A stretch of DNA of 64,000 nucleotides, taken from positions 1 to 64,000 of the forward strand of contig NZ_JAAEDL010000001.1 in assembly GCF_018129005.1 (NCBI RefSeq), written 5' to 3'. This document shows positions 11,012 to 50,807 of this stretch, piece by piece. Origin of the DNA: Neoroseomonas eburnea. GTDB lineage: Bacteria > Pseudomonadota > Alphaproteobacteria > Acetobacterales > Acetobacteraceae. Position numbers and translations under genes: made by a program. Each line of letters starts with the position of its first letter. Positions within the stretch are counted from its first letter, which is position 1. The notes under the pieces were generated by a model. It was given only the letters and a program-made list of their open reading frames with translations. It had not been told where the DNA came from and did no database searches.

Positions 11012-12760
11012 CTAGACCGGCCGGTCGCCCTTCTCGACGCGCAGGGTGCGGTTGTCGACGCCCGGCAACATGCGCGACGGGTCGCGGGTGACGATGACGT
11101 CGAGGATGGTCGGCGTGTCGGTGTTCGCCAACCCTTCGCGGATCGCCGCGCCCAGCCTGCCGGGGTCTTCCACGCGGATGCCGCGGCAGCCGAAGGCGCG
11201 GGCGGCGGCGGCGTAGTCGGTCTCGGCGAGTTCCGAGGACTGGTACTTTCCGGGCCCGTAGACGGCGTGCTGCAACGCCTTCACGTAGCCCGAGGCGCCA
11301 TTGTTGAAGACGCAGAGGATGAAGTTGGCGCCGACGCGGCGCGCGGTCTCGATCTCGCCGATCGTCATGTTGAAGCCGCCGTCGCCGGTCAGGCCCACCA
11401 CGCGCCGCCCAGGCCCGGCGGCAAGCTGCGCGCCGAGCGCCCCCGGCGCACCGTAGCCGATGGAGGCGAAGCCGCGATCGGCGATGAAGTGCCGCCCGGC
11501 CTTCCTGGTGTCGAACAGCAGTCCGCCCCAGTGGCCGGCGAAGCCGCCATCGGCGACGAGGATGTCCTCCTCCCCCATGGCCGCGTTCAGCTCGTTGATC
11601 AGGCGGCCGACATTGATCGGCGTCTCGTTCGATTCCAGCCGGTCGGCGGCGCCGACGCGCCAGGCGGCCATGCGCGGCGCGACGGCGCCGGCGAACTCCG
11701 CGCGGCCGTCGGGCAGCGGGCCGGAGGGCAGCGCCGCGAGCAGGTCTTCCAGCGCCAGCCGCGCATCGGCCGCCAGCGCGACATCGGCGCGGGTGGTGCG
11801 GCCGATCTCCTCCGGCACGATCTCGATGTGCACCACCGGCACGCCGGCCGGCATCAGCGAGAAGCGCTTCGTCGCGATCTCGCCGAGCTTGCAGCCGACG
11901 ACGATGAGCAGGTCGGCTTCCGCGACGAAGTCGTTGGCGATGCGGCTGTAGCGCCCGAAGACACCGAGCGAGAGCGGGTGCGTGCAGGCGATCGCGCCCT
12001 TGCCCGACATGGTGTGCGCGACCGGGATGCGCCCGGCCTCGGCAAGCGCGAGCAGCGCGTCGTAGGCGGCGCTGACATGGATGCCGCCGCCGACCAGCAG
12101 CAGCGGGCGCTTCGCCCTGGCGAGCAGCGCGGCCGCACGGTTCAGCTCGTGCGGGTCGGGCCGCGTGCGGCGCGCCTGGGCCTGCAGCGTGCCGGGATCG
12201 GCCCAGATCTCGTCAGCGCCGAATTCGTGTTCGCCGTGGCAGACATCCTCCGGCACGTCGAGCACCACCGGGCCGGGGCGGCCGGAGGTGGCGACGGCGA
12301 AGGCGCGGCGCACCATCTCCGGGATGCGCTTCGTGCTCTCGACGCGGATGAGTTCCTTGCAGGCGGGGCGCAGGATCTCCACCTGCCGCGCCTCCTGCGT
12401 CATGTTCTTCCAGGCGTGGTCGCGATTGGCGTCGCCGGTGATGGCCACCAGCGGAATGCCGGCGTTGAGGCTTTCCACCAGGCCGGTCACGAGGTTCGTC
12501 GCCCCCGGCCCGAGCGTCGCGTCGACCACCCCGGGGCGGTTCGTCACCCGTGCCCAGGCGTCGGCGGCGAAGGTGCCGCAGCGTTCGTCGTTGATGAGGT
12601 AGTGCTTCAGGCCGAGCGCGCGCACCGCCTCGTAGAAGGGCAGCAACTGGAAGCCACCCATGCCGAACATCGGGCCCACATGATGGGCCTGGAGCATGCG
12701 CGCCAGCGCCTCCCCGCCCGTGATGGTCAGCGTCGCATTGGAGGGCGGGGCGTCGGTCAC
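11012..12760 (-). CDS. thiamine-pyrophosphate-binding protein, acetolactate-synthase-like
   Basis: This 582-aa protein has the three domains of the acetolactate synthase/benzoylformate decarboxylase family: an N-terminal pyrimidine-binding domain with the catalytic Glu59 (NDERCGTFAADA), a central Rossmann-like domain, and a C-terminal PP domain with GDG at 459-461 and NN at 486-487. The segment that makes real acetolactate synthases FAD-dependent is not obvious. The substrate is therefore an unknown 2-oxoacid or aldehyde. GTG 12760 overlaps the upstream gene's stop by 4 nt (GTGA), so the two are translationally coupled, which ties its function to the duplicated unknown protein before it. Confidence 0.85.
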   Translation of the reverse strand: MTDAPPSNATLTITGGEALARMLQAHHVGPMFGMGGFQLLPFYEAVRALGLKHYLINDERCGTFAADAWARVTNRPGVVDATLGPGATNLVTGLVESLNAGIPLVAITGDANRDHAWKNMTQEARQVEILRPACKELIRVESTKRIPEMVRRAFAVATSGRPGPVVLDVPEDVCHGEHEFGADEIWADPGTLQAQARRTRPDPHELNRAAALLARAKRPLLLVGGGIHVSAAYDALLALAEAGRIPVAHTMSGKGAIACTHPLSLGVFGRYSRIANDFVAEADLLIVVGCKLGEIATKRFSLMPAGVPVVHIEIVPEEIGRTTRADVALAADARLALEDLLAALPSGPLPDGRAEFAGAVAPRMAAWRVGAADRLESNETPINVGRLINELNAAMGEEDILVADGGFAGHWGGLLFDTRKAGRHFIADRGFASIGYGAPGALGAQLAAGPGRRVVGLTGDGGFNMTIGEIETARRVGANFILCVFNNGASGYVKALQHAVYGPGKYQSSELAETDYAAAARAFGCRGIRVEDPGRLGAAIREGLANTDTPTILDVIVTRDPSRMLPGVDNRTLRVEKGDRPV

Positions 12761-13584
12761 GCGCGGTGGTCCTTCTCGATCGCTTCGGCAAGCAGTGTGA
12801 CGGCGTCGCGCACCCGCATGCCGGGCTTCAACCCAAGCGAGGCCGCGCATGCATTGACGCAGGAGATGATGCCGGTTTCGACGGCGGAGCGGCCATCGCC
12901 GATGCGCGCCGTCCAGGCGGAGTAGGTCGCGGCCGCGATGCCGCGCGCATCGAGCGCCGGCAGGCGCGTGAATCCCGCACCGTCGATGCCGCCATCGGCA
13001 TCGTTGTAGAGCGCGGCGAAGACGGCGGCGCGGGCGGCGCTTTCGGGGCGACCGCCGAGCAGCCCGCCATGGCTGCCGGTGACGACGACCGTGCCGTCAT
13101 CATCCGCCGTCATCAGCGAATTGGAGTCCATCGCGCAGGCGCGCGCGCGGTGCAGCCCGGGCAGGTCCACGGGAAAGCGGGACTCGACGCTGTCCGGGGC
13201 ATCCATCACCGGCACCGGTGCGGCGGCGAGGCGGCGGGCGGCTTCCCGGCACCACATGCCGGGCTCGACGCCGAGTGCCGCGGCGGCGCGGTTCACATGG
13301 CTGACGACGCCGCGGCCGAGCAGATCGAAGCCGTCCCCGATGCGCGCGCTGCGGTGGGAACAGCAGGCGGCGGGAATGCCGAGCGGATCGAGATAGGCGA
13401 GCCCCGCGATGCCGGCGCCGTCGAGGCCGAGCCCCGCATCGTTCAGCACCACCCCGGCGGTGCGGGCCTTCGCCGCCAGGTAGGCGGCGTAGATCCCGCC
13501 ATGGGAGCCGCCGACGATGACGCGCCCTTGCGCCTCCGGCCCCAGCCGGGTGACGCTGTCCACGACAATGAGCCGCTCCAGCAT
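12757..13584 (-). CDS. unrecognised protein made of two tandem homologous halves
   Basis: This 275-aa protein has no family I can name. It consists of two related halves (about 5-118 and 150-268). Each has, in the same order, a beta-strand then GSHGG (27-30; 171-174), an NDA/GGxxxDGAG segment (48-58; 194-204), ARIGDG (80-85; 226-231), a G-x-V/I-S-x-V-N motif ending at 98 and 244, and an LGLKPGM-like segment (104-110; 250-256). Offsets between matching motifs are a constant 144-146 residues, the sign of a gene duplication. The conserved SHGG, DAG and ARIGDG motifs suggest a ligand- or metal-binding site in each half. It is coupled (4-nt overlap) to the TPP enzyme and divergent from E1 alpha/beta. 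Confidence 0.85.
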   Translation of the reverse strand: MLERLIVVDSVTRLGPEAQGRVIVGGSHGGIYAAYLAAKARTAGVVLNDAGLGLDGAGIAGLAYLDPLGIPAACCSHRSARIGDGFDLLGRGVVSHVNRAAAALGVEPGMWCREAARRLAAAPVPVMDAPDSVESRFPVDLPGLHRARACAMDSNSLMTADDDGTVVVTGSHGGLLGGRPESAARAAVFAALYNDADGGIDGAGFTRLPALDARGIAAATYSAWTARIGDGRSAVETGIISCVNACAASLGLKPGMRVRDAVTLLAEAIEKDHRA

Positions 13585-13652
13585 GGCGCTTGTCCTCCCT
13601 GCCCGGGAGTAGAGCGCGTTGCTTGCCGCGGCAAAAGGGGGAGGGGGTTCGC

Positions 13653-14786
13653 ATGGTGGGGTCCGATGACCGGAGTGCGCAGGCGGCTGCGCCGCCGGGC
13701 GGCGGAGATCCGAGCCGGTCCCCGCATCGTCAGGGCTCCGCCTCCAACGAGACGGCACGGCGGCTCGCGATGCTGCGCGACATGGCGCGCATCCGCGCCT
13801 TCGAGCACGAGGCGGTTGCCGCGATGCGCAGCGGCCAGGCGCCGGGCGTGGTGCATCCCTCCATCGGGCAGGAGGGCGTGGCGGTCGGCGTCTGCGCCAA
13901 CCTGCGCCGCGCGGACCGCATCACCAGCACTCATCGCGGCCACGGCCACGCCATCGCCAAGGGCGCGGACGCACGGGCGATGATGCTGGAACTGCATGGC
14001 CGCGCCGGCGGGTCGTGCGGCGGCAAGGGCGGGTCGATGCACATCGCCGATTTCGCGGTCGGCATGCTCGGCGCGAACGGCGTGGTCGGCGCCGGCATCC
14101 CGATCGCCTGCGGCGCGGCACAGGCCATCCGGCTGCGGCGCGCCGTCCGGTCGGCGGAAGCCGCAGCCCGCTTGGCCGGCGGGCAGCGGAACCGCGAACC
14201 GGCAGGCGCGGAGGAAGACGACGCGATCGTCGCCTGCTTCTTCGGCGATGGCGCGGTCAACCGCGGTCCCTTCCTGGAAGGGATGAACTGGGCGGCATTG
14301 TACCGCCTGCCGGTGCTCTTCGTCTGCGAGGACAATGGCTTCGCCGCCTTCACCCGCAACAGCGCGGTGACGGCGGGCGGCGGGCCGGCTGTCCGCGCCG
14401 AGGCCTGCGGCGTGCCGGCGATCGCCGTGGACGGGGAGGACGCGCTGGCGGTGGACGCGGTGGCGGCGGAACTCGTCGCGCGCATCCGCGGCGGCGCGGG
14501 GCCGCAGTTCCTGCACGCCAGGTGCTACCGTTGGGAGGGCCACACCGGCACCGACGCCGCCGCCTATCGCCCGGCGGAGGAAGCCGCCGCGGCGCGCGAC
14601 CGCGACTGCATCCGGCGGCTCGCCGCGGCGCTGGCGACGGCGGGCGTCGCGGCGGAGGAGATCGCCGCCATCGAGGCCGAGGCAGCCGAGGAGATGGCCA
14701 GCCACCGTGCGGCCGCCATGGCCGCCCCCTGGCCCGACCCTGGCGCCGCCTTCAGCGACGTGCAGGATGCGGGGGCGCCGGCATGA
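13653..14786 (+). CDS. acoA: 2-oxoacid/acetoin dehydrogenase E1 component, alpha subunit
   Basis: This 377-aa TPP-dependent E1 alpha subunit resembles AcoA/PdhA. Diagnostic segments are THRGHGHAIAKG (93-104), GGKGGSMH (123-130), the TPP-Mg motif beginning GDG at 198-200 and closing at Asn228 in EDNGF, and YRWEGHTGTD near the C-terminus. It would decarboxylate the 2-oxoacid or cleave acetoin, transferring the acyl group to a lipoyl E2. About 28 residues (162-189), rich in Ala, Arg and Glu, appear inserted just before the GDG motif compared with typical AcoA. ATG 13653 has a strong GGGGGAGGGGG site 5 nt away. No E2 or E3 gene follows. The symbol is by resemblance. Confidence 0.85.
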   Translation: MVGSDDRSAQAAAPPGGGDPSRSPHRQGSASNETARRLAMLRDMARIRAFEHEAVAAMRSGQAPGVVHPSIGQEGVAVGVCANLRRADRITSTHRGHGHAIAKGADARAMMLELHGRAGGSCGGKGGSMHIADFAVGMLGANGVVGAGIPIACGAAQAIRLRRAVRSAEAAARLAGGQRNREPAGAEEDDAIVACFFGDGAVNRGPFLEGMNWAALYRLPVLFVCEDNGFAAFTRNSAVTAGGGPAVRAEACGVPAIAVDGEDALAVDAVAAELVARIRGGAGPQFLHARCYRWEGHTGTDAAAYRPAEEAAAARDRDCIRRLAAALATAGVAAEEIAAIEAEAAEEMASHRAAAMAAPWPDPGAAFSDVQDAGAPA

Positions 14787-15754
14787 CCCGCATGAGCTTC
14801 GCCGAGGCCGCGCGCACCGCACTCGCCGAGGAGATGCGCCGCGACCCGTTGGTCTGGGCGCTGGGCGAGGACCTCGCGCAAGGCGGCATCTTCGGCCAGT
14901 ACAAGGGCCTCGCGGAGGAGTTCGGCCCCGACCGCATCGTCTCCACCCCGATCAGCGAGAGCGCCATCATGGGCGCGGGCCTCGGCGCCGCGCTGTGCGG
15001 CACGCGTCCGGTGATCGAGATGCGCATCGCCGACTTCACCCTCTGCGCGATGGACGAGCTGGTCAGCCAGATCGCCAAGGTGCGCTACATGTTCGGCGGG
15101 CAGGGGCGCGCCGCGCTCGTGGTGCGCATGCCGCAGGGCATGTGGCGCAATTCGGCGGCGCAGCACAGCCAATGCCTGGAGGCCTGGCTGACGCATATCC
15201 CGGGCCTGGTCGTTGCCGCGCCCGGCACGCCGGCGGATGCCGCGGGGCTGTTGAAGGCCGCGATCCGCAGCGACGATCCGGTGGTGCTGATGGAGCCGAA
15301 GAACCTGTGGACCGCGGAAGGCGAGGTGCCCGAGGCGGTCGAGCCCGTCGCCCTCGGCGTCGCCCGCCAGGTGGCGCAGGGCGACGCTGCGACCGTCGTC
15401 ACCTGGTCCGCCTGCGTGCCCGTGGTGGAGCAGGGCGCGCGCGACAGCGGCGTCGCCTGCGACGTCTTCGACCTGCGCAGCCTCTGGCCGTGGGACGAGG
15501 CGGCGGTGATCGCCTCGGCGCGCCGCACGGGCCGCTTGCTGGTGGTGCATGAGGCGGTGACCGTCTCCGGCTTCGGGGCGGAGGTGGTCGCGCGGGTGGT
15601 GGAAGCACTCGGGCCGGGCGGCCTGCGCGCGGTGGAACGGCTCGGTGCCCCGCGTGCGCCGGTGCCATTCAGCCCGCCGCTCGAGGACGCGATGCGCATG
15701 ACGCCGGCGCGCGTCGTGCAGGCGATCCGGCGCGTCGCGTCGGCGAGGCATTGA
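14783..15754 (+). CDS. acoB: 2-oxoacid/acetoin dehydrogenase E1 component, beta subunit
   Basis: This 323-aa protein is the transketolase-like beta half of the E1 heterotetramer. It begins with MSFAEAARTALAEEM and GEDLAQGGIFGQYKGL, has the STPISESAIMGAGLGAAL segment carrying the conserved TPP-activating glutamate, and ends with the transketolase C-terminal domain (FDLRSLWPWDE, HEAVTVSGFGAEV). ATG 14783 overlaps the alpha gene's stop by 4 nt, giving 1:1 coupling. The expected E2/E3 genes are missing, and the next gene is an unrelated peroxiredoxin after a hairpin, so the complex must borrow its lipoyl component from elsewhere or works differently. Confidence 0.88.
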   Translation: MTRMSFAEAARTALAEEMRRDPLVWALGEDLAQGGIFGQYKGLAEEFGPDRIVSTPISESAIMGAGLGAALCGTRPVIEMRIADFTLCAMDELVSQIAKVRYMFGGQGRAALVVRMPQGMWRNSAAQHSQCLEAWLTHIPGLVVAAPGTPADAAGLLKAAIRSDDPVVLMEPKNLWTAEGEVPEAVEPVALGVARQVAQGDAATVVTWSACVPVVEQGARDSGVACDVFDLRSLWPWDEAAVIASARRTGRLLVVHEAVTVSGFGAEVVARVVEALGPGGLRAVERLGAPRAPVPFSPPLEDAMRMTPARVVQAIRRVASARH

Positions 15755-15896: not shown

Positions 15897-16559
15897 ATGA
15901 GCATTGCCATTGGCCAGACGGCCCCGGATTTCGAAGCCGACACGACACAGGGACGCATCCGCTTCCACGAGTGGATCGGCGATTCCTGGGCCATCCTGTT
16001 CAGCCATCCTAAGGACTTCACGCCGGTCTGCACGACCGAGCTCGGCACCATGGCCGGGCTGAAGCCGGAGTTCGACAAGCGCAACACCAAGATCATCGGC
16101 CTCAGCGTCGATCCGGTGGGCGAGCACAGCCGCTGGGCCGACGACATCCGCGAGGTGACGGGCCATGCCGTGACCTATCCGATGATCGGCGACCCGACGC
16201 TGCATGTCTCCAAGCTCTACGGCATGCTGCCGGCGGATGCAGGGACCACATCGGAAGGGCGCACGGCCGCCAACAACCAGACCGTGCGCGTCGTCGTTAT
16301 CATCGGGCCGGACAAGCAGGTGAAGTCCTACCTGGCCTATCCGATGACGGCCGGCCGCAACTTCGACGAGATCCTGCGGCTGCTCGACAGCCTGCAACTC
16401 ACGGCGAAGCACAAGGTCGCGACGCCGGCCAACTGGAAGCACGGCGAGGATGTGATCATCGCCGGCTCGGTCTCGAACGAGGACGCGAAGAAGCTGTGGC
16501 CGCAGGGCTGGCGTGAGCCGAAGCCCTATATCCGCATCGTGCCGCAGCCGCAGGGCTGA
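15897..16559 (+). CDS. peroxiredoxin, 1-Cys (Prx6/AhpC-TSA) type
   Basis: This 220-aa peroxidase reduces hydrogen peroxide and organic hydroperoxides. The peroxidatic cysteine is Cys45 in FTPVCTTELG, and the conserved Arg and Thr of the active site are in place. The extended C-terminal domain (residues about 150-220, including NWKHGEDVIIAGSV and the final YIRIVPQP) is typical of the Prx6 class. No resolving cysteine is evident after Cys45, in keeping with a 1-Cys mechanism. GAGGGAG stands before the ATG. It appears to be a single-gene unit, between the E1 hairpin and a convergent repeat. Confidence 0.93.
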   Translation: MSIAIGQTAPDFEADTTQGRIRFHEWIGDSWAILFSHPKDFTPVCTTELGTMAGLKPEFDKRNTKIIGLSVDPVGEHSRWADDIREVTGHAVTYPMIGDPTLHVSKLYGMLPADAGTTSEGRTAANNQTVRVVVIIGPDKQVKSYLAYPMTAGRNFDEILRLLDSLQLTAKHKVATPANWKHGEDVIIAGSVSNEDAKKLWPQGWREPKPYIRIVPQPQG

Positions 16560-16865: not shown

Positions 16866-18152
16866 CTACCCGAGCCCCATCGCCCGCGGCAGCCAGAGCG
16901 CGATATCCGGAAACACCACCACCAGCGCCAGCGCGACGAACATCGCGAGGATCATCCAGACCACCCAGGGGATGGTGGATTCCATGCTCACGCCGGCGAT
17001 CCGGCAGGAGACCATGAGGTTCACCGCCATCGGCGGGGTGAACTGGCCGATCGCGATCTTCATGGTCAGGATCACGCCGAACCAGGTCAGGTCCCAGTGG
17101 AAGGTATTGGCGATCGGGATCAGCACCGGCAGCAGGATCAGGAAGGTGGAGACACCGTCGAGGAACATGCCGATGACGATCAGCACCAGCATGAGCAGCC
17201 CGATGGTGCCGTATTCGCCGAGGCCGAGCCCGACCACCCAGGTCGCGATCGGCTGCACGATGCCGAGCGTCGAGGTGGACCATGCGAAGACGCTCGCCAG
17301 CGCCACGACGATGAGGATGACGGCCGAGAGCTCGCCCGCCTCCACCAGCATCTCGTAAAGGTCGCGCAGGGTGAGGCTGCGGTAGACCACGAAGCCGACG
17401 AACAGGCCGTAGGCGACGGCCAGCACCGCCGCCTCGGTCGGCGTGACGAAGCCGGAGCGCATGGCGCCGAGGATGACGACCGGCGCCATCAGGCCCCAGA
17501 TCGCCTCCTTGAAGGTGGTCCAGACGCGCAGGCGCTCCTCGGTGCGCGCCTTGCCGCCGAAATCCTTGACCATCGAGATGATCACGATCGGGACGATGAT
17601 GGCGAAGCCGGCCAGGATCCCGGGGAACATGCCGGCCATGAAGATGGCTGGCACCGAGACGCCGGGCACCAGCACCGCGTAGATGATGAAGGCGATGGAG
17701 GGCGGGATGAGGATGTCCGTCGCCGCCGCCGCGCCGACCGTGCTGGCGATGAAGGATCGCGGGTAGCCATCCTTCACCATGCTGCGCGTGACCACCTGGC
17801 CGACCGCGGCCGAGGTGGCAGGCCCCGAGCCGGAGATGCCGCCGATCACCATGGCGACCAGCACGGCGACCGAGGCGAGCGCGCCGCGCCCCGCGCCGAC
17901 CAGGGCGGTCGCGAAGCGCACGAGCCGCAGCGCCACGCCCGTCCGGTCGAAGACGCTGCCGACCAGCACGAACATCGGGATGGCCATGAGCGGGTATTTC
18001 GCGATGCCGGCATAGACATTGGTCGGCATGGCAAAGATGGACTGATCCGCCAGCACGATGGCGGTCGCGCCCGCCAGGCCCAGGGCGACGGCGATCGGCA
18101 CGCCGCCGAGCAGCATGATGGTGAACAGCGCGAAGAGGGTGACGCCGATCAT
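16866..18152 (-). CDS. dctM: TRAP transporter large permease, DctM subunit (system 1)
   Basis: This 428-aa integral membrane protein has about 12 hydrophobic segments and is the sodium-coupled transport channel of a tripartite ATP-independent periplasmic transporter. Family features include the N-terminal GGVPIAVALGLAG, the GGISGSGPATSAAVG loop, PPSIAFIIYAV, and the C-terminal TPPMAVNLMVSC. It is the last gene of the operon DctP-DctQ-DctM; its ATG is 5 nt after the DctQ stop. Substrate is set by the DctP protein and is likely an organic acid. Confidence 0.92.
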   Translation of the reverse strand: MIGVTLFALFTIMLLGGVPIAVALGLAGATAIVLADQSIFAMPTNVYAGIAKYPLMAIPMFVLVGSVFDRTGVALRLVRFATALVGAGRGALASVAVLVAMVIGGISGSGPATSAAVGQVVTRSMVKDGYPRSFIASTVGAAAATDILIPPSIAFIIYAVLVPGVSVPAIFMAGMFPGILAGFAIIVPIVIISMVKDFGGKARTEERLRVWTTFKEAIWGLMAPVVILGAMRSGFVTPTEAAVLAVAYGLFVGFVVYRSLTLRDLYEMLVEAGELSAVILIVVALASVFAWSTSTLGIVQPIATWVVGLGLGEYGTIGLLMLVLIVIGMFLDGVSTFLILLPVLIPIANTFHWDLTWFGVILTMKIAIGQFTPPMAVNLMVSCRIAGVSMESTIPWVVWMILAMFVALALVVVFPDIALWLPRAMGLG

Positions 18153-18156
18153 CGGA

Positions 18157-18666
18157 TCAGCCCTCCGCCCCGCGCAGAACGCGCATCAGCCGCCCGGCGG
18201 CACGACCGATGACGACAAGCGAGAGCAGCGGCAGCCACCCGGTATAGAGCCAGTTCGGGTGGCCGAGGCCGTTCGACAGCACCTCGAAGCGGTATTCGTC
18301 GTAGGCGAGGCGGGCGCCGTACCAGGCCAGCAGGGCGAAGCAGGCGATCGTCAGGACCATCGCGGCCGCCTCGGCCCAGCGCCGGTAGGCCGGTGGCCCT
18401 TCGTCGATCAGCACGCCGATGCGGATATGCCGGCCCGTCGCCGTGGCCAGTGCGGTCCCGAGCAAGGCCACGACGACCATCAGCGCGACCGAGTATTCCT
18501 CGGTGAAGGCGAGGGAGACGTTGGTCAGGTAGCGCGTGACGACGTTGGCGGCGGTGATCAGCGCCATCGCGGCCATGGCGGCGGCAATGAGGACTTCCTC
18601 GATACGCAGCGGGACCCGCGTATGCGGGCCGGTCCGCTCGGCGGTCGGGTCGGGCTCGGCGCTCAC
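18157..18666 (-). CDS. dctQ: TRAP transporter small permease, DctQ subunit (system 1)
   Basis: This 169-aa protein has four predicted transmembrane helices and the DctQ-type pattern NVVTRYLTNVSLAFTEEYSV followed by GRHIRIGVLIDEGP. It couples to DctM to form the membrane part of the transporter. GTG 18666 was chosen because it starts 3 nt after the DctP stop and gives the usual cytosolic N-terminus; no in-frame ATG lies before the first helix. Gene order P-Q-M is the normal one. Confidence 0.88.
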   Translation of the reverse strand: MSAEPDPTAERTGPHTRVPLRIEEVLIAAAMAAMALITAANVVTRYLTNVSLAFTEEYSVALMVVVALLGTALATATGRHIRIGVLIDEGPPAYRRWAEAAAMVLTIACFALLAWYGARLAYDEYRFEVLSNGLGHPNWLYTGWLPLLSLVVIGRAAGRLMRVLRGAEG

Positions 18667-18668
18667 AC

Positions 18669-19724
18669 TCAGGCCGTCGCGGCGCGGATGGCGGCCTCGG
18701 CCTTGCGGACCAGCTCGGCGCCGACGGTCTGCGACCACTTCTCGTAGACCGGACGCGTGGCGCGGGCGAATTCCGCCTTTTCCTGCGCGGTGAGGACGGT
18801 GACCTCCACCCCGCGGCGCCGCAGTTCCTGCATCGAGGAATCGTCGCCGCCGTCGAGGCCGAGGCCGCGCCGCGTCAGCGCGATCTGGTTGCGGCCGGCT
18901 TCCTCGGCGCATTCGCGCACGAGCTGCTTGTCGGCGTCGGTGAAGCTGTTCCAGACGCTGCGGGAGAGGCAGAAGATCAGCGGGTCGTTGACGTAGTTCC
19001 ACACCGTCAGGTGCTTCTGCGCCAGCGTGTCCATGCGGAAGGCGAGGAAGAGATTGATCGGGTTCTCCTGCCCGTCCACCGCGCCGGTGGACAGCGCCGG
19101 CTGCAGGTCGGCGAAGGACATCTGCACCGGATTGGCGCCGAGGGTGTTGTAGATGTCGCTGAAGATCGCCCCCGCCGCGAAGCGGATCTTCATGCCGCGC
19201 AGGTCGGCCGGCGTGCGGATGGCGCGCTTGGAGTTGGAGATCTCGCGGAAGCCGTTCTCGCCCCAGGCGAGGGGCACCACTTCCCGCCGCTCCATCACGC
19301 CGAAGATGTCGCGGCCGACCTCGCCGCCGATCAGCGCGTCGAGCGCCTTGTGGTTCGGCATCAGGAACGGGAGCTGGAACAGCCCGACCTCCCGCACCTG
19401 CGGGGCGATGTTGATGGTGCTGAACACCGAGAAGTCGATCACGCCCTGGCGCATCGCCACCAGCTCGCGCGTCTGGTCGCCGCCGACGAGCTGGCTGCCG
19501 GGATAGACCTTCACGTTGATGCGGCCGCCGGAACGCTGGGTGACCAGCTCGGCCCACTGGAAGGCGCCTTCGGCGAAGGGAATGGGCCGGTTGCCGACCA
19601 CCGAGAGCTTGTATTCCGGCCGGTACTGCGCCTGCGCGCGGGCGAGGCCGGGCAGGGCGAGCCCCGCCCCGGCGGCGCCCAGAAGCAGGCTGCGGCGCGA
19701 TGCGCCGGTCATGGTCTCGGTCAT
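18669..19724 (-). CDS. dctP: TRAP transporter substrate-binding protein, DctP family (system 1)
   Basis: This 351-aa periplasmic solute receptor has a twin-arginine style signal (ASRRSLLLGAAGAG, cleavage around ALARAQA) and the DctP pattern: KVYPGSQLVGGDQTRELVAMRQG, LPFLMP, the conserved arginine in the ADLRGMKIRF segment that binds the substrate carboxylate, and VDGQENPINL. That arginine argues for an organic-acid ligand. ATG 19724 is preceded by GAGGGAG; ATG 19712 is an in-frame alternative. It is divergent from an acyl-CoA synthetase 154 bp away, a hint that the imported acid is activated to a CoA ester. Confidence 0.9.
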   Translation of the reverse strand: MTETMTGASRRSLLLGAAGAGLALPGLARAQAQYRPEYKLSVVGNRPIPFAEGAFQWAELVTQRSGGRINVKVYPGSQLVGGDQTRELVAMRQGVIDFSVFSTINIAPQVREVGLFQLPFLMPNHKALDALIGGEVGRDIFGVMERREVVPLAWGENGFREISNSKRAIRTPADLRGMKIRFAAGAIFSDIYNTLGANPVQMSFADLQPALSTGAVDGQENPINLFLAFRMDTLAQKHLTVWNYVNDPLIFCLSRSVWNSFTDADKQLVRECAEEAGRNQIALTRRGLGLDGGDDSSMQELRRRGVEVTVLTAQEKAEFARATRPVYEKWSQTVGAELVRKAEAAIRAATA

Positions 19725-23307: not shown

Positions 23308-24312
23308 ATGAAGCGACGGGACCTGGCGCGCGGCCTCGCGGCCGGCACGGTCCTGCTGGCGGCCCCGCGTGTCGCGCGGGCGCAGCAGGCCATCACCCTG
23401 AACGGCGCCGTGCAGTTCAACGACGACCACGTCTTCACCCGCGCCCTGGTGCGGTTCGAGGAGCTGGTGAAGCAGTACTACACCGCCCAGCCGGTGAACT
23501 TCGTGCTGCACAAGAACTCCAGCCTTGGGCTCGAGAAGCAGTATTTCGAATACATGTCGGCCGGGCGCGGCGCGGTGGATTACGGCATCGTCTCCCCGGC
23601 GCACATGTCCACCTTCAGCCGCGCCGCACCCTTCGTCGACGCGCCCTTCCTGTTCCGCGACCTGGCGCACTGGAACCAGGTGCTGGACCAGGACCTGTTC
23701 GCGCCGGTGGCTCAGGAGATCGAGCGCCGCGCCCGCGTCGCGCTGATCGGCTATGCCGGCGGCGGCGTGCGCAACATCTTCGCCAACAAGCGCGTCACCA
23801 ACATGGCGGAACTCCGCGGCCTCAAGGTCCGCGTACAGGGCGCGCCGATCTGGTCGCGGACCTTCCAGGCGGCAGGGATGGCGCCCACGGTCATCGCCTA
23901 CAACGAGGTCTACAACGGCATCCAGAACAACGTCATCGAGGCCGGCGAGAACGAGGCCGCGGGCGTCGAGGCGATGCGCTTCTACGAGGTGGCGCCGAAC
24001 CTCATCATGACGCAGCACGCCATCACCATCCGGCCGCTGTGCTTTTCGACCCAGACCCTGTCGCGCCTGCCCGCACCGCTGCAGGAGGCGATCCGCCGCG
24101 CCGGCAAGGAAGCCGGCACCTTCGGCCGCCAGGCCGAGAGCAGCGAGGATGGCCAGAAGCTCGACCAGCTCGAACGCGCCGGCCGCCTGCGCCGCGTCGA
24201 GTTCACCGAACGCGCCGAGCTGAAGCGCGCGGTCGATCCGGTGATGGCCGCCTATGCGCGCGAGGTCGATGCGGAGACCATCTTCACCCGCATCAACGCC
24301 ATCGCCTCCTGA
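23308..24312 (+). CDS. dctP: TRAP transporter substrate-binding protein, DctP family (system 2)
   Basis: This 334-aa solute receptor has a cleavable signal peptide (MKRRDLARGLAAG..., cleavage around residues 25-26, ARAQQ). DctP hallmarks are the segment TNMAELRGLKVRVQG containing the ligand-binding arginine, then YNEVYNGIQNNVIEAGENE. It differs clearly in sequence from the system-1 receptor, so the two transporters probably import different acids. AAGGGAGAG stands 6-7 nt before ATG 23308. It is the first gene of a P-Q-M operon. Confidence 0.9.
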   Translation: MKRRDLARGLAAGTVLLAAPRVARAQQAITLNGAVQFNDDHVFTRALVRFEELVKQYYTAQPVNFVLHKNSSLGLEKQYFEYMSAGRGAVDYGIVSPAHMSTFSRAAPFVDAPFLFRDLAHWNQVLDQDLFAPVAQEIERRARVALIGYAGGGVRNIFANKRVTNMAELRGLKVRVQGAPIWSRTFQAAGMAPTVIAYNEVYNGIQNNVIEAGENEAAGVEAMRFYEVAPNLIMTQHAITIRPLCFSTQTLSRLPAPLQEAIRRAGKEAGTFGRQAESSEDGQKLDQLERAGRLRRVEFTERAELKRAVDPVMAAYAREVDAETIFTRINAIAS

Positions 24313-24376
24313 TACGCAGCCGGCCGGGGGCGATGCGCGCCGCCCGGCCGGCCCTTCCCGACAACCGGAGCGACCC

Positions 24377-24886
24377 ATGTCCCAGCCCGGCCTGCGCGGC
24401 CTGGTGCGGTGTGCCGCTGGCTTCTATGCCCGGCTGCTCTCCGCGCTGCTTGCGATCTCCGTCCTGATCCTCGTCTTCCCGGTCACGCTGCAGGTGGTCT
24501 CGCGCCAGACATCCTGGCTGCCGCACTATATCTGGACGGAGGAGATGGCGCGCTTCCTGCTCGTCTGGACCGTCATGATCGGCGCCATCGTCGGCCAGAA
24601 GGAAGGCATCCACTTCATCGTCGATCTCTGGCCCGAGTTGAAGGGCCGCAGGCGCGCCTTCATGGACATCGTCTCGGGCCTCTTCGTGCTGGTCTTCGGC
24701 GGGATCTTCCTTTGGTTCGGGATCGAGTTCGTCGACTTCGCCTGGTTCCGCATCAGCGAGCTCGCGGAACTGCCGCTCTGGCTGATCCACCTGCCCTGGC
24801 CGATCCTGGGCTTCTCCTGGCTGCTCTTCGCCGGCGAGAAGTTCGCCGACGACCTGCGCATGCTGGTCCACGGGGAGGCCGCCTGA
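24377..24886 (+). CDS. dctQ: TRAP transporter small permease, DctQ subunit (system 2)
   Basis: This 169-aa protein has four hydrophobic helices and the family pattern LQVVSRQTSWLPHYIWTEEMARFLLVW and GQKEGIHFIVD. ATG 24377 begins just before the first helix and follows the CGGAGCG site. The stop codon shares bases with the DctM start (TGATG), so the two membrane subunits are translationally coupled. Confidence 0.9.
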   Translation: MSQPGLRGLVRCAAGFYARLLSALLAISVLILVFPVTLQVVSRQTSWLPHYIWTEEMARFLLVWTVMIGAIVGQKEGIHFIVDLWPELKGRRRAFMDIVSGLFVLVFGGIFLWFGIEFVDFAWFRISELAELPLWLIHLPWPILGFSWLLFAGEKFADDLRMLVHGEAA

Positions 24887-26205
24887 TGGGGGGCAATGCG
24901 CTCGCCGCCGGGGAGGCGGCCTGGATCCTGTTCGGGGTCTTCTTCGTCCTGCTCGCCCTGCGCGTGCCGGTCGCCGTCGCGCTCGGCCTCGCCTGCCTGC
25001 CGGTGCTGTGGATGGAGCCGCGGCTCGGGCCGATGGTGCTGATGCAGGAGACGTTCAACGCGTACAACTCCTTCATCCTGCTCGCGGTGCCGTTCTTCCT
25101 GCTGACGGCCAACCTGATGAACGTCGGTGGCATCACCGACCGGCTGATGACGCTGTCGCGCACCATGGTCGGGCACTTCCCGGGCGGGCTCGCGCAGATC
25201 AACGTCGTGCTGTCGATCTTCTTCGCGGGCATCTCCGGCTCCTCGACCGCCGATGCCGCGTCGCAGTCGAAGATCTTCATCGATGCCCAGCGGAAGGAGG
25301 GCTACGACGACGGCTTCTCCGTCGCCATCACCGCGGTCTCGGCGGTGCTCGCGGTCATCATCCCACCCTCGATCCTGATGATCGTCTGGGGCGGCGTGCT
25401 GACCGTCTCGATCGGCGCGCTGTTCCTCGCCGGCATCCTGCCGGGGCTGCTCATCGGCCTGGTGCAGATGGCGACCGTGCATGCCTATGCGAAGGCACGC
25501 GGCTACCCGACCTATCCGCGCGCCGGCTGGGGCGAGTTCCTGCGCGCGATGGCGATCTCGATCCCCGCGCTGATGACGCCGGCCATCATCATCGGCGGCA
25601 AGGTCTTCGGCTGGTTCACTGCGACGGAAAGCGCCTGCATCGCTGTGCTCTACGCCGGCGCGCTGTCGCTGCTCTACTACCGCGAGATGGGGATGAAGGA
25701 GCTGTGGGAGGCGCTCGGCGAAACCGGAAGGCTCGCCTCGGTGGCGCTGTTCTGCGTCGGCACCGCCTCCGCCTTCGGCTGGCTGCTCGCCTATTACGAG
25801 ATCCCGAAGGCGATCCTCGCCGGCGTCTCCGCCTGGGGCATGGGAAAGATCGCGACGGGCTTCTTCATCGCCGGCGTCTTCCTGGTGGTGGGATGCTTCC
25901 TCGATGCCATCCCGGCGATCATCATCGTAGGCGCCATCCTGCAGCCGCTCGCCGTCGGCGTCGGCATGGACCCGGTGCATTTCGCCATGATCGGCATCGT
26001 CAGCCTGGCCTTCGGGCTGGTGACGCCGCCCTACGGGCTCTGCCTGATGATCGCCTGCCACGTGGCCGGAATGCGCATGGCCGATGCGCTCAAGGACACG
26101 ATGATCATGCTGCTGCCGATGCTCGGCGTGCTGGTGCTGGTGATCATCTGGCCGGAGGTGGTATTGTTCCTGCCGCGTCTCGTCTCGCCCGAATTCCTCG
26201 ATTGA
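24886..26205 (+). CDS. dctM: TRAP transporter large permease, DctM subunit (system 2)
   Basis: This 439-aa polytopic protein, the transport subunit of TRAP system 2, shows LRVPVAVALGLAC near the N-terminus, FFAGISGSSTADAASQSKIF in the conserved loop, PPSILMIVWG, and TPPYGLCLMIACHVAG towards the end. Start ATG 24886 overlaps the dctQ stop by one base. After it the DNA runs 152 bp to a glycosyltransferase gene without obvious connection. Confidence 0.92.
   Translation: MGGNALAAGEAAWILFGVFFVLLALRVPVAVALGLACLPVLWMEPRLGPMVLMQETFNAYNSFILLAVPFFLLTANLMNVGGITDRLMTLSRTMVGHFPGGLAQINVVLSIFFAGISGSSTADAASQSKIFIDAQRKEGYDDGFSVAITAVSAVLAVIIPPSILMIVWGGVLTVSIGALFLAGILPGLLIGLVQMATVHAYAKARGYPTYPRAGWGEFLRAMAISIPALMTPAIIIGGKVFGWFTATESACIAVLYAGALSLLYYREMGMKELWEALGETGRLASVALFCVGTASAFGWLLAYYEIPKAILAGVSAWGMGKIATGFFIAGVFLVVGCFLDAIPAIIIVGAILQPLAVGVGMDPVHFAMIGIVSLAFGLVTPPYGLCLMIACHVAGMRMADALKDTMIMLLPMLGVLVLVIIWPEVVLFLPRLVSPEFLD

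Positions 26206-49091: not shown

Positions 49092-50807
<1,716 letters not shown>

Follow-up and report, generated by a model that had tools for sequence, protein, structure and literature searches.

What task might two thiamine pyrophosphate (TPP)-dependent enzymes share when their genes flank that of a duplicated protein? The question is raised by a locus at positions 11,012–15,754 of a 64,000-nucleotide stretch (hereafter the window) at the start of contig C1 (NZ_JAAEDL010000001.1) of the 5.86-Mb Neoroseomonas eburnea genome (G000; GCF_018129005.1). The locus encodes an acetolactate synthase (ALS)-like enzyme, the duplicated protein, here called DUP, and an AcoAB-like E1 alpha/beta pair. 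A first-pass annotation of this DNA had proposed that the four genes serve a single pathway, in which an aldehyde or 2-oxoacid is handed from one TPP enzyme to the other. All four genes are present as described, with agreeing Pfam domain assignments; a common pathway is well supported, as the ALS–DUP–E1 linkage recurs in several gene orders, and the putative hand-over is plausible. The set is not limited to four genes: the annotation had overlooked the tripartite ATP-independent periplasmic (TRAP) transporter genes DctPQM, the IclR and short-chain dehydrogenase/reductase (SDR) partners, the kinship of DUP with DUF1805, and a link to the apionate pathway. Judged from gene neighbourhoods, ALS, DUP, E1 alpha/beta and DctPQM very probably work together as a single functional unit, which in many cases also includes an IclR regulator and a particular SDR dehydrogenase. 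Our favoured overall explanation, held tentatively, is that these genes serve the TRAP-fed catabolism of a small hydroxy-oxo acid.

Conservation and gene orders of the locus

Conservation of the four-gene locus, which the first-pass annotation had suggested checking, extends across the genus and far outside it, so that the arrangement goes far beyond chance. Within the genus, a full DUP is present in 15 of 34 genomes (the window's own genome not counted), and all four genes are adjacent in 14 of these 15. Outside the genus, 80 DUP loci were recovered from a scanned set of 84,980 species genomes. ALS lies at most 5 kb from the anchor genes in 62 of them and E1 beta within the same distance in 42, and a tblastn check concurs. 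The ALS orthologue (58–94% identity) occurs as a single copy in 34 of 299 genomes of the family and 35 of 385 of the class. Tandem DUP was found in 32 of the 34 ALS-bearing family genomes, against 12 of the 265 without ALS (Fisher p ~1e-30); these counts were assembled by hand, with one genome (G039) scored positive and genomes holding only a single-domain form of DUP excluded. Since ALS was detected in 2 of 398 genomes of a phylum-wide sample, both Alphaproteobacteria, the gene set is mainly alphaproteobacterial. The plasmid collection held DUP relatives and no close ALS. The four genes are apart in a minority of genomes, so that their separation in related genomes, named by the first-pass annotation as counter-evidence, was seen in part and not as it had been worded. 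In the one remaining genus genome with a full DUP (G013, locus L010), DUP–ALS lies directly beside the peroxiredoxin gene and the E1 pair is missing, as if deleted.

The window-type order, with E1 divergent from DUP–ALS, is present in many genera. E1 alpha, E1 beta and ALS are adjacent and co-directional in ten loci, followed in some by an SDR dehydrogenase. DctPQM adjoins E1 in L099, L238 and L263 and lies between E1 and ALS in L072 and L252, and in L242 a single contiguous co-directional run reads IclR–E1a–E1b–DctP–DctQ–DctM–ALS–DUP. Among Burkholderiales, L316 has a single-domain DUP gene with an E1a–E1b–DctQ–DctM–DctP operon some 2 kb away, and L301 a DctPQM–cyclase–DUP–ALS run. TRAP genes adjoin E1 or ALS in distant genomes, DctP orthologues being found next to E1 in both Alpha- and Betaproteobacteria. 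These recurrent orders widen the unit to a transporter, often a regulator, the two TPP enzymes and DUP.

The two TPP-dependent enzymes

Conserved motifs support TPP competence for both ALS and E1. The catalytic glutamate (in NDERCG) and the GDG...NN TPP motif are conserved over 90 ALS orthologues, E1 alpha carries the conserved TPP motif GDGAVNRG together with THRGHGHAIAKG, and E1 beta conserves ISES and AAQHSQ, the latter being the histidine motif of E1. Against TIGR00118, the model for biosynthetic acetolactate synthase, the ALS-like protein scored 375.7 bits, below the cut-off of 538.35. Where acetolactate synthases have GMVTQWQ, including its Trp, the ALS-like proteins have a family-invariant SGYVKALQH, which suggests a different acceptor pocket. 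A biosynthetic acetolactate synthase was rejected on the TIGR00118 score and the missing GMVTQWQ motif.

The first-pass label "AcoAB-like" was right as a relationship: within this genome, the paralogue nearest to the window E1 (44%/49% identity) is an Aco-like E1 that has a lipoyl E2 of its own, and contig C12 carries an Aco-like operon that encodes a separate E1 and E2 together with an acyl-CoA dehydrogenase and an AMP-ligase. The annotation had also reckoned with a complete AcoABC operon elsewhere that uses the same E1; an AcoABC-like operon does exist, but its E1 differs. Its statement that E2 and E3 are lacking held: when the E2s and E3 of the genome itself served as tblastn queries, neither a lipoyl E2 nor an E3 turned up in the window or among 229 fetched records. 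In a posterior mean site frequency (PMSF) tree, all E1 beta proteins linked to ALS/DUP but four formed one clade (100/99), neighbouring the Aco-like E1 beta of the N. eburnea genome. The other four (Xanthobacteraceae, Acetobacteraceae and two Poribacteria) formed a distinct clade (100/100) and are also encoded beside DUP–ALS; long branches reduce trust in the deep branching order of this tree. By this phylogeny, a second, unrelated E1 is recruited beside DUP–ALS elsewhere, and two separate E1 lineages with the same partners argue for function rather than inherited synteny. Another orphan E1, a fused alpha–beta protein of 710 aa without E2, is encoded on contig C20 of the same genome (L171, 6107–8239), where it adjoins an SDR gene and a branched-chain-amino-acid-type ATP-binding cassette (ABC) transporter.

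DUP and its neighbourhoods

The unknown protein had been called duplicated, correctly, since its two halves align over 121 aa with 43% identity (E 3e-27); SHGG, DAG, ARIGD and a downstream Asn are conserved in each half. DUP scored 32.2 bits against Pfam DUF1805 (PF08827), above the gathering cut-off of 29.5, and some relatives fall below that cut-off. Structural alignment of its AlphaFold2 (AF2) model (pLDDT 94.7) gave TA1206 (1QW2, DUF1805) as the top match, with a Z of 8.1 over 93 of 102 residues and a root-mean-square deviation (rmsd) of 2.9, a Z near 8 being, by the aligner's own warning, at the edge of the noise range; the next match reached Z 5.4. A sequence profile of single-domain and half DUP sequences did not find TA1206 in the PDB. 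Given a score near noise and a profile search that missed TA1206, DUP is likely, rather than proven, to be a DUF1805 relative. The structure of DUF1805 has been solved since 2004 and, to our knowledge, its function is not known; a literature search on DUF1805/YunC found nothing useful. Resemblances of DUP to a Y-family polymerase (Pfam IMS, Foldseek Pol eta) and to RecA, the latter with no passing stretch, were short and local and were taken as chance.

Single-domain DUP relatives of Acetobacteraceae (117–132 aa) adjoin an ApnO-like reductoisomerase close to PDB 5T57, an OiaK-like kinase (NF042436, E 4e-171) and an OiaX-like RuBisCO-like protein (NF042437, E 1e-138); in L163, SDR, SMP-30 lactonase, OiaX, OiaK, ApnO and DUP stand in one row. 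On haloarchaeal plasmids, tandem DUP lies in TRAP–aldolase–SDR–VOC–DUP–OiaX–OiaK clusters, with ApnO near in two of the three clusters and an IclR regulator in all, and one of these clusters shares 57% (OiaX), 44% (OiaK) and 48% (ApnO) identity with the bacterial proteins. Enzymes of the ALS family classically produce acetolactate, and 3-oxo-isoapionate (2,4-dihydroxy-2-(hydroxymethyl)-3-oxobutanoate) is acetolactate hydroxylated on both methyls. DUP is thus found with two sets of enzymes that would act on substrates of a common skeleton, and because further, differing DUP neighbourhoods exist, this link is a lead and not proof.

Neighbours at other loci include SDR, SMP-30 lactonase, BKACE, HpaI aldolase and LtnD. 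In Burkholderiales and one Gammaproteobacterium (L048, L082, L075, L299, L300, L302, L303), an AMP-ligase and a citryl-CoA lyase accompany tandem DUP, mostly together with SDR and a Bug binding protein; an IclR regulator is often present as well. Phreatobacter loci (L084, L085, L098, L102) have tandem DUP convergent with a barbiturase/cyanuric-acid-hydrolase-like gene, with E1 and acyl-CoA dehydrogenase nearby. Distant tandem DUP relatives (about 34% identity) are found on Rhodococcus and Aminobacter plasmids (L326, L325) among beta-oxidation, CoA-transferase and HMG-CoA-lyase genes; the Rhodococcus member extends the family to Actinomycetota.

Proposed pathway and rival explanations

In the catabolic pathway that we propose, the transporter would import, or the SDR would make, a branched 2-hydroxy-3-oxo acid, R-CO-C(OH)(R')-COO-. 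DUP would act on this ketol-acid by isomerisation, racemisation or decarboxylation, and the ALS-like enzyme would reverse the acetolactate synthase reaction, cleaving the C2–C3 bond to yield a 2-oxoacid along with an acyl group or aldehyde bound to TPP. The AcoAB-like E1 would take the 2-oxoacid or an acyloin, the acyl group either passing to a lipoyl E2 encoded elsewhere or being released by carboligation. Linkage and cofactor class can be read from the genomes; substrate, direction and the action of DUP we infer. A branched ketol-acid of the acetolactate type is a possible substrate class, which we hold less firmly than the catabolic role, and each reaction named here is less probable still. 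PDB entry 4P8B, the EFI target to which the window DctP is 54% identical, may be an acetolactate-bound structure. Among the new TRAP ligands given in a review of the EFI screen is 2-acetolactate (PMC5812351).

Several points weigh against this explanation. We know of no characterised activity for any protein of the locus. The OiaK- and OiaX-like scores are below the curated NCBIfam cut-offs, and the haloarchaeal DctP reaches no more than about 25% identity. ApnO had no match at E 1e-25 in the N. eburnea genome or in the other 34 genomes of the genus; the pathway is therefore not the apionate pathway itself, and a D-apionate pathway in N. eburnea was rejected. ALS–E1 sets with no DUP nearby also occur (L240, L250). 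DUP has widely differing neighbours (UxaA-like dehydratase, barbiturase-like protein, acyl-CoA ligase with citryl-CoA lyase), so that it may be used for several substrates, and a general function in repair, or an accessory one, fits as well.

Part of this variety would suit a sugar-acid or hydroxy-acid pathway without a ketol-acid. ALS would then simply decarboxylate a 2-oxoacid, or use it in carboligation, with a dehydratase, aldolase or dehydrogenase supplying that 2-oxoacid; E1 would oxidise a different 2-oxoacid, and DUP would be a lactonase, hydrolase or isomerase for the upstream sugar acid. UxaA/galactarate-dehydratase-like proteins, HpaI aldolase, LtnD-like dehydrogenase, SMP-30 lactonase and cyclase are all found as neighbours, and many TRAP substrates are sugar acids (PMC5812351). 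However, these neighbours are variable, absent from the window, and each less constant than SDR, TRAP and IclR, while the company that DUP keeps with the OiaK/OiaX/ApnO set is left unexplained; we regard such a pathway as rather unlikely. It is improbable, too, that DUP has a general accessory or repair function in metabolism (e.g. tautomerising or detoxifying reactive oxo-acids) and occurs as such in many unrelated catabolic clusters, with ALS and E1 forming a pathway of their own without an obligatory DUP step. Its occurrence alongside ALS/E1, OiaK/OiaX/ApnO, ligase with citryl-CoA lyase, and barbiturase-like genes would agree with such a role, as would the ALS–E1 sets that lack it, but in the ALS-bearing family genomes DUP is almost always present (32 of 34) and usually adjacent or overlapping, and its neighbourhoods are not random, having oxo-acid chemistry in common.

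The AcoA/AcoB-type motifs of E1, and the position of its nearest paralogue in an Aco-like operon with a lipoyl E2, could also point to acetoin or diacetyl degradation, in which E1 would be that of a genuine acetoin dehydrogenase, dependent on lipoyl E2/E3 borrowed from another complex, and ALS would be a catabolic acetolactate synthase. We consider this very improbable, as acoX and acoR, like E2 and E3, occur at none of the loci, ALS falls below the acetolactate synthase model cut-offs and is without the QWQ stretch, and the Aco-like paralogue already supplies the acetoin function in this genome. A complete acetoin dehydrogenase operon was likewise rejected, no E2/E3 having been found at any locus.

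The gene set combines known enzyme families with one uncharacterised family, and its chemistry has apparently not been described before. Whether the ALS-like protein is a C–C lyase in an undescribed route for acetolactate-type acids, with DUF1805 as a new ketol-acid enzyme family, is a more specific proposal, and a rather unlikely one; if true, the DUF1805 family, in single- and double-domain forms, would be common to the ALS/E1 and 3-oxo-isoapionate routes in both bacteria and archaea. DUF1805 gains a testable role tied to a defined chemical class of substrates, and a conserved transporter–regulator–enzyme set is defined. By family names alone, the set reads as acetolactate synthase, pyruvate dehydrogenase E1 and a hypothetical protein, a reading that would mislead metabolic models of many Alphaproteobacteria.

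Gene content of the window

Table 1. Features of the locus and adjoining genes in the window.
Feature	Coordinates	Strand	Details
ALS-like TPP-dependent enzyme	11012..12760	-	582 aa; GTG start; Pfam TPP_enzyme_N/M/C
DUP	12757..13584	-	275 aa; two tandem DUF1805-like domains; PF08827 E 1.3e-7
Divergent intergenic region	13585..13652		68 bp
E1 alpha, AcoA-like	13653..14786	+	ATG 13653; PF00676 (E1_dh) E 2.7e-63
E1 beta, AcoB-like	14783..15754	+	PF02779/PF02780 (Transket_pyr + Transketolase_C)
1-Cys peroxiredoxin	15897..16559	+	between E1 and TRAP genes; beside locus in genus
TRAP large permease DctM	16866..18152	-	PF06808 E 1.2e-91
TRAP small permease DctQ	18157..18666	-	part of DctPQM
TRAP solute-binding protein DctP	18669..19724	-	best PDB match 4P8B, E 1.6e-115, 54% identity

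The DUP stop codon and the ALS GTG start (12760) share 4 bp, read as GTGA, which makes the first-pass description of the pair as translationally coupled reasonable: the overlap is present, and coupling is presumed. E1 alpha and E1 beta likewise overlap by 4 bp (ATGA). The E1 alpha ATG is preceded by a GGGGGAGGGGG stretch, and the two divergent starts lie exactly 68 bp apart, as had been stated. No match to the sigma-70 consensus was found in the intergenic region, and sigma-70 and terminator scans did not exceed chance. DctPQM occupies 16866–19724 with binding protein, small permease and large permease in order. The peroxiredoxin gene adjoins the locus in 12 loci, all within the genus, and is probably a passenger.

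A second TRAP-transporter-like gene set lies near the first (23308–26205, +). Further along the window, Rfam 5_ureB_sRNA (RF02514) matched with 110.9 bits at 49244–49536 (-), on the strand opposite to the urease gene at 49092–50807, a match that may just reflect conserved urease coding sequence.

Comparison with known systems

The ALS-like protein resembles acetohydroxyacid/acetolactate synthase (AHAS) in its three-domain TPP fold, NDERCG and GDG-x-NN, matching a solved AHAS at E 1e-65; unlike that enzyme, it scores below the TIGR00118 cut-off, carries SGYVKALQH, has no adjoining IlvN subunit, and is linked to uptake and catabolic genes. With acetoin dehydrogenase E1 (AcoA/AcoB), the window E1 shares THRGHGHAIAKG, GDGAVN and AAQHSQ, and it is sister to the Aco-like E1 of its own genome, whereas it stands without E2, E3, AcoX and AcoR, falls in a separate clade, and is paired with ALS, DUP and TRAP. 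DctP is 54% identical to the EFI target 4P8B (H16_A1328 of Ralstonia eutropha).

The D-apiose pathways are said to have been described by Carter et al. in 2018. The likeness to the D-apionate/3-oxo-isoapionate pathway lies in the DUP relatives that sit in ApnO/OiaK/OiaX clusters of bacteria and haloarchaea; in N. eburnea, by contrast, ApnO is absent from the genome and the TPP enzymes stand in for the kinase and the RuBisCO-like protein. DUP itself differs from the DUF1805 proteins TA1206 and YunC in having two copies in one chain and extra conserved SHGG and DAG motifs.

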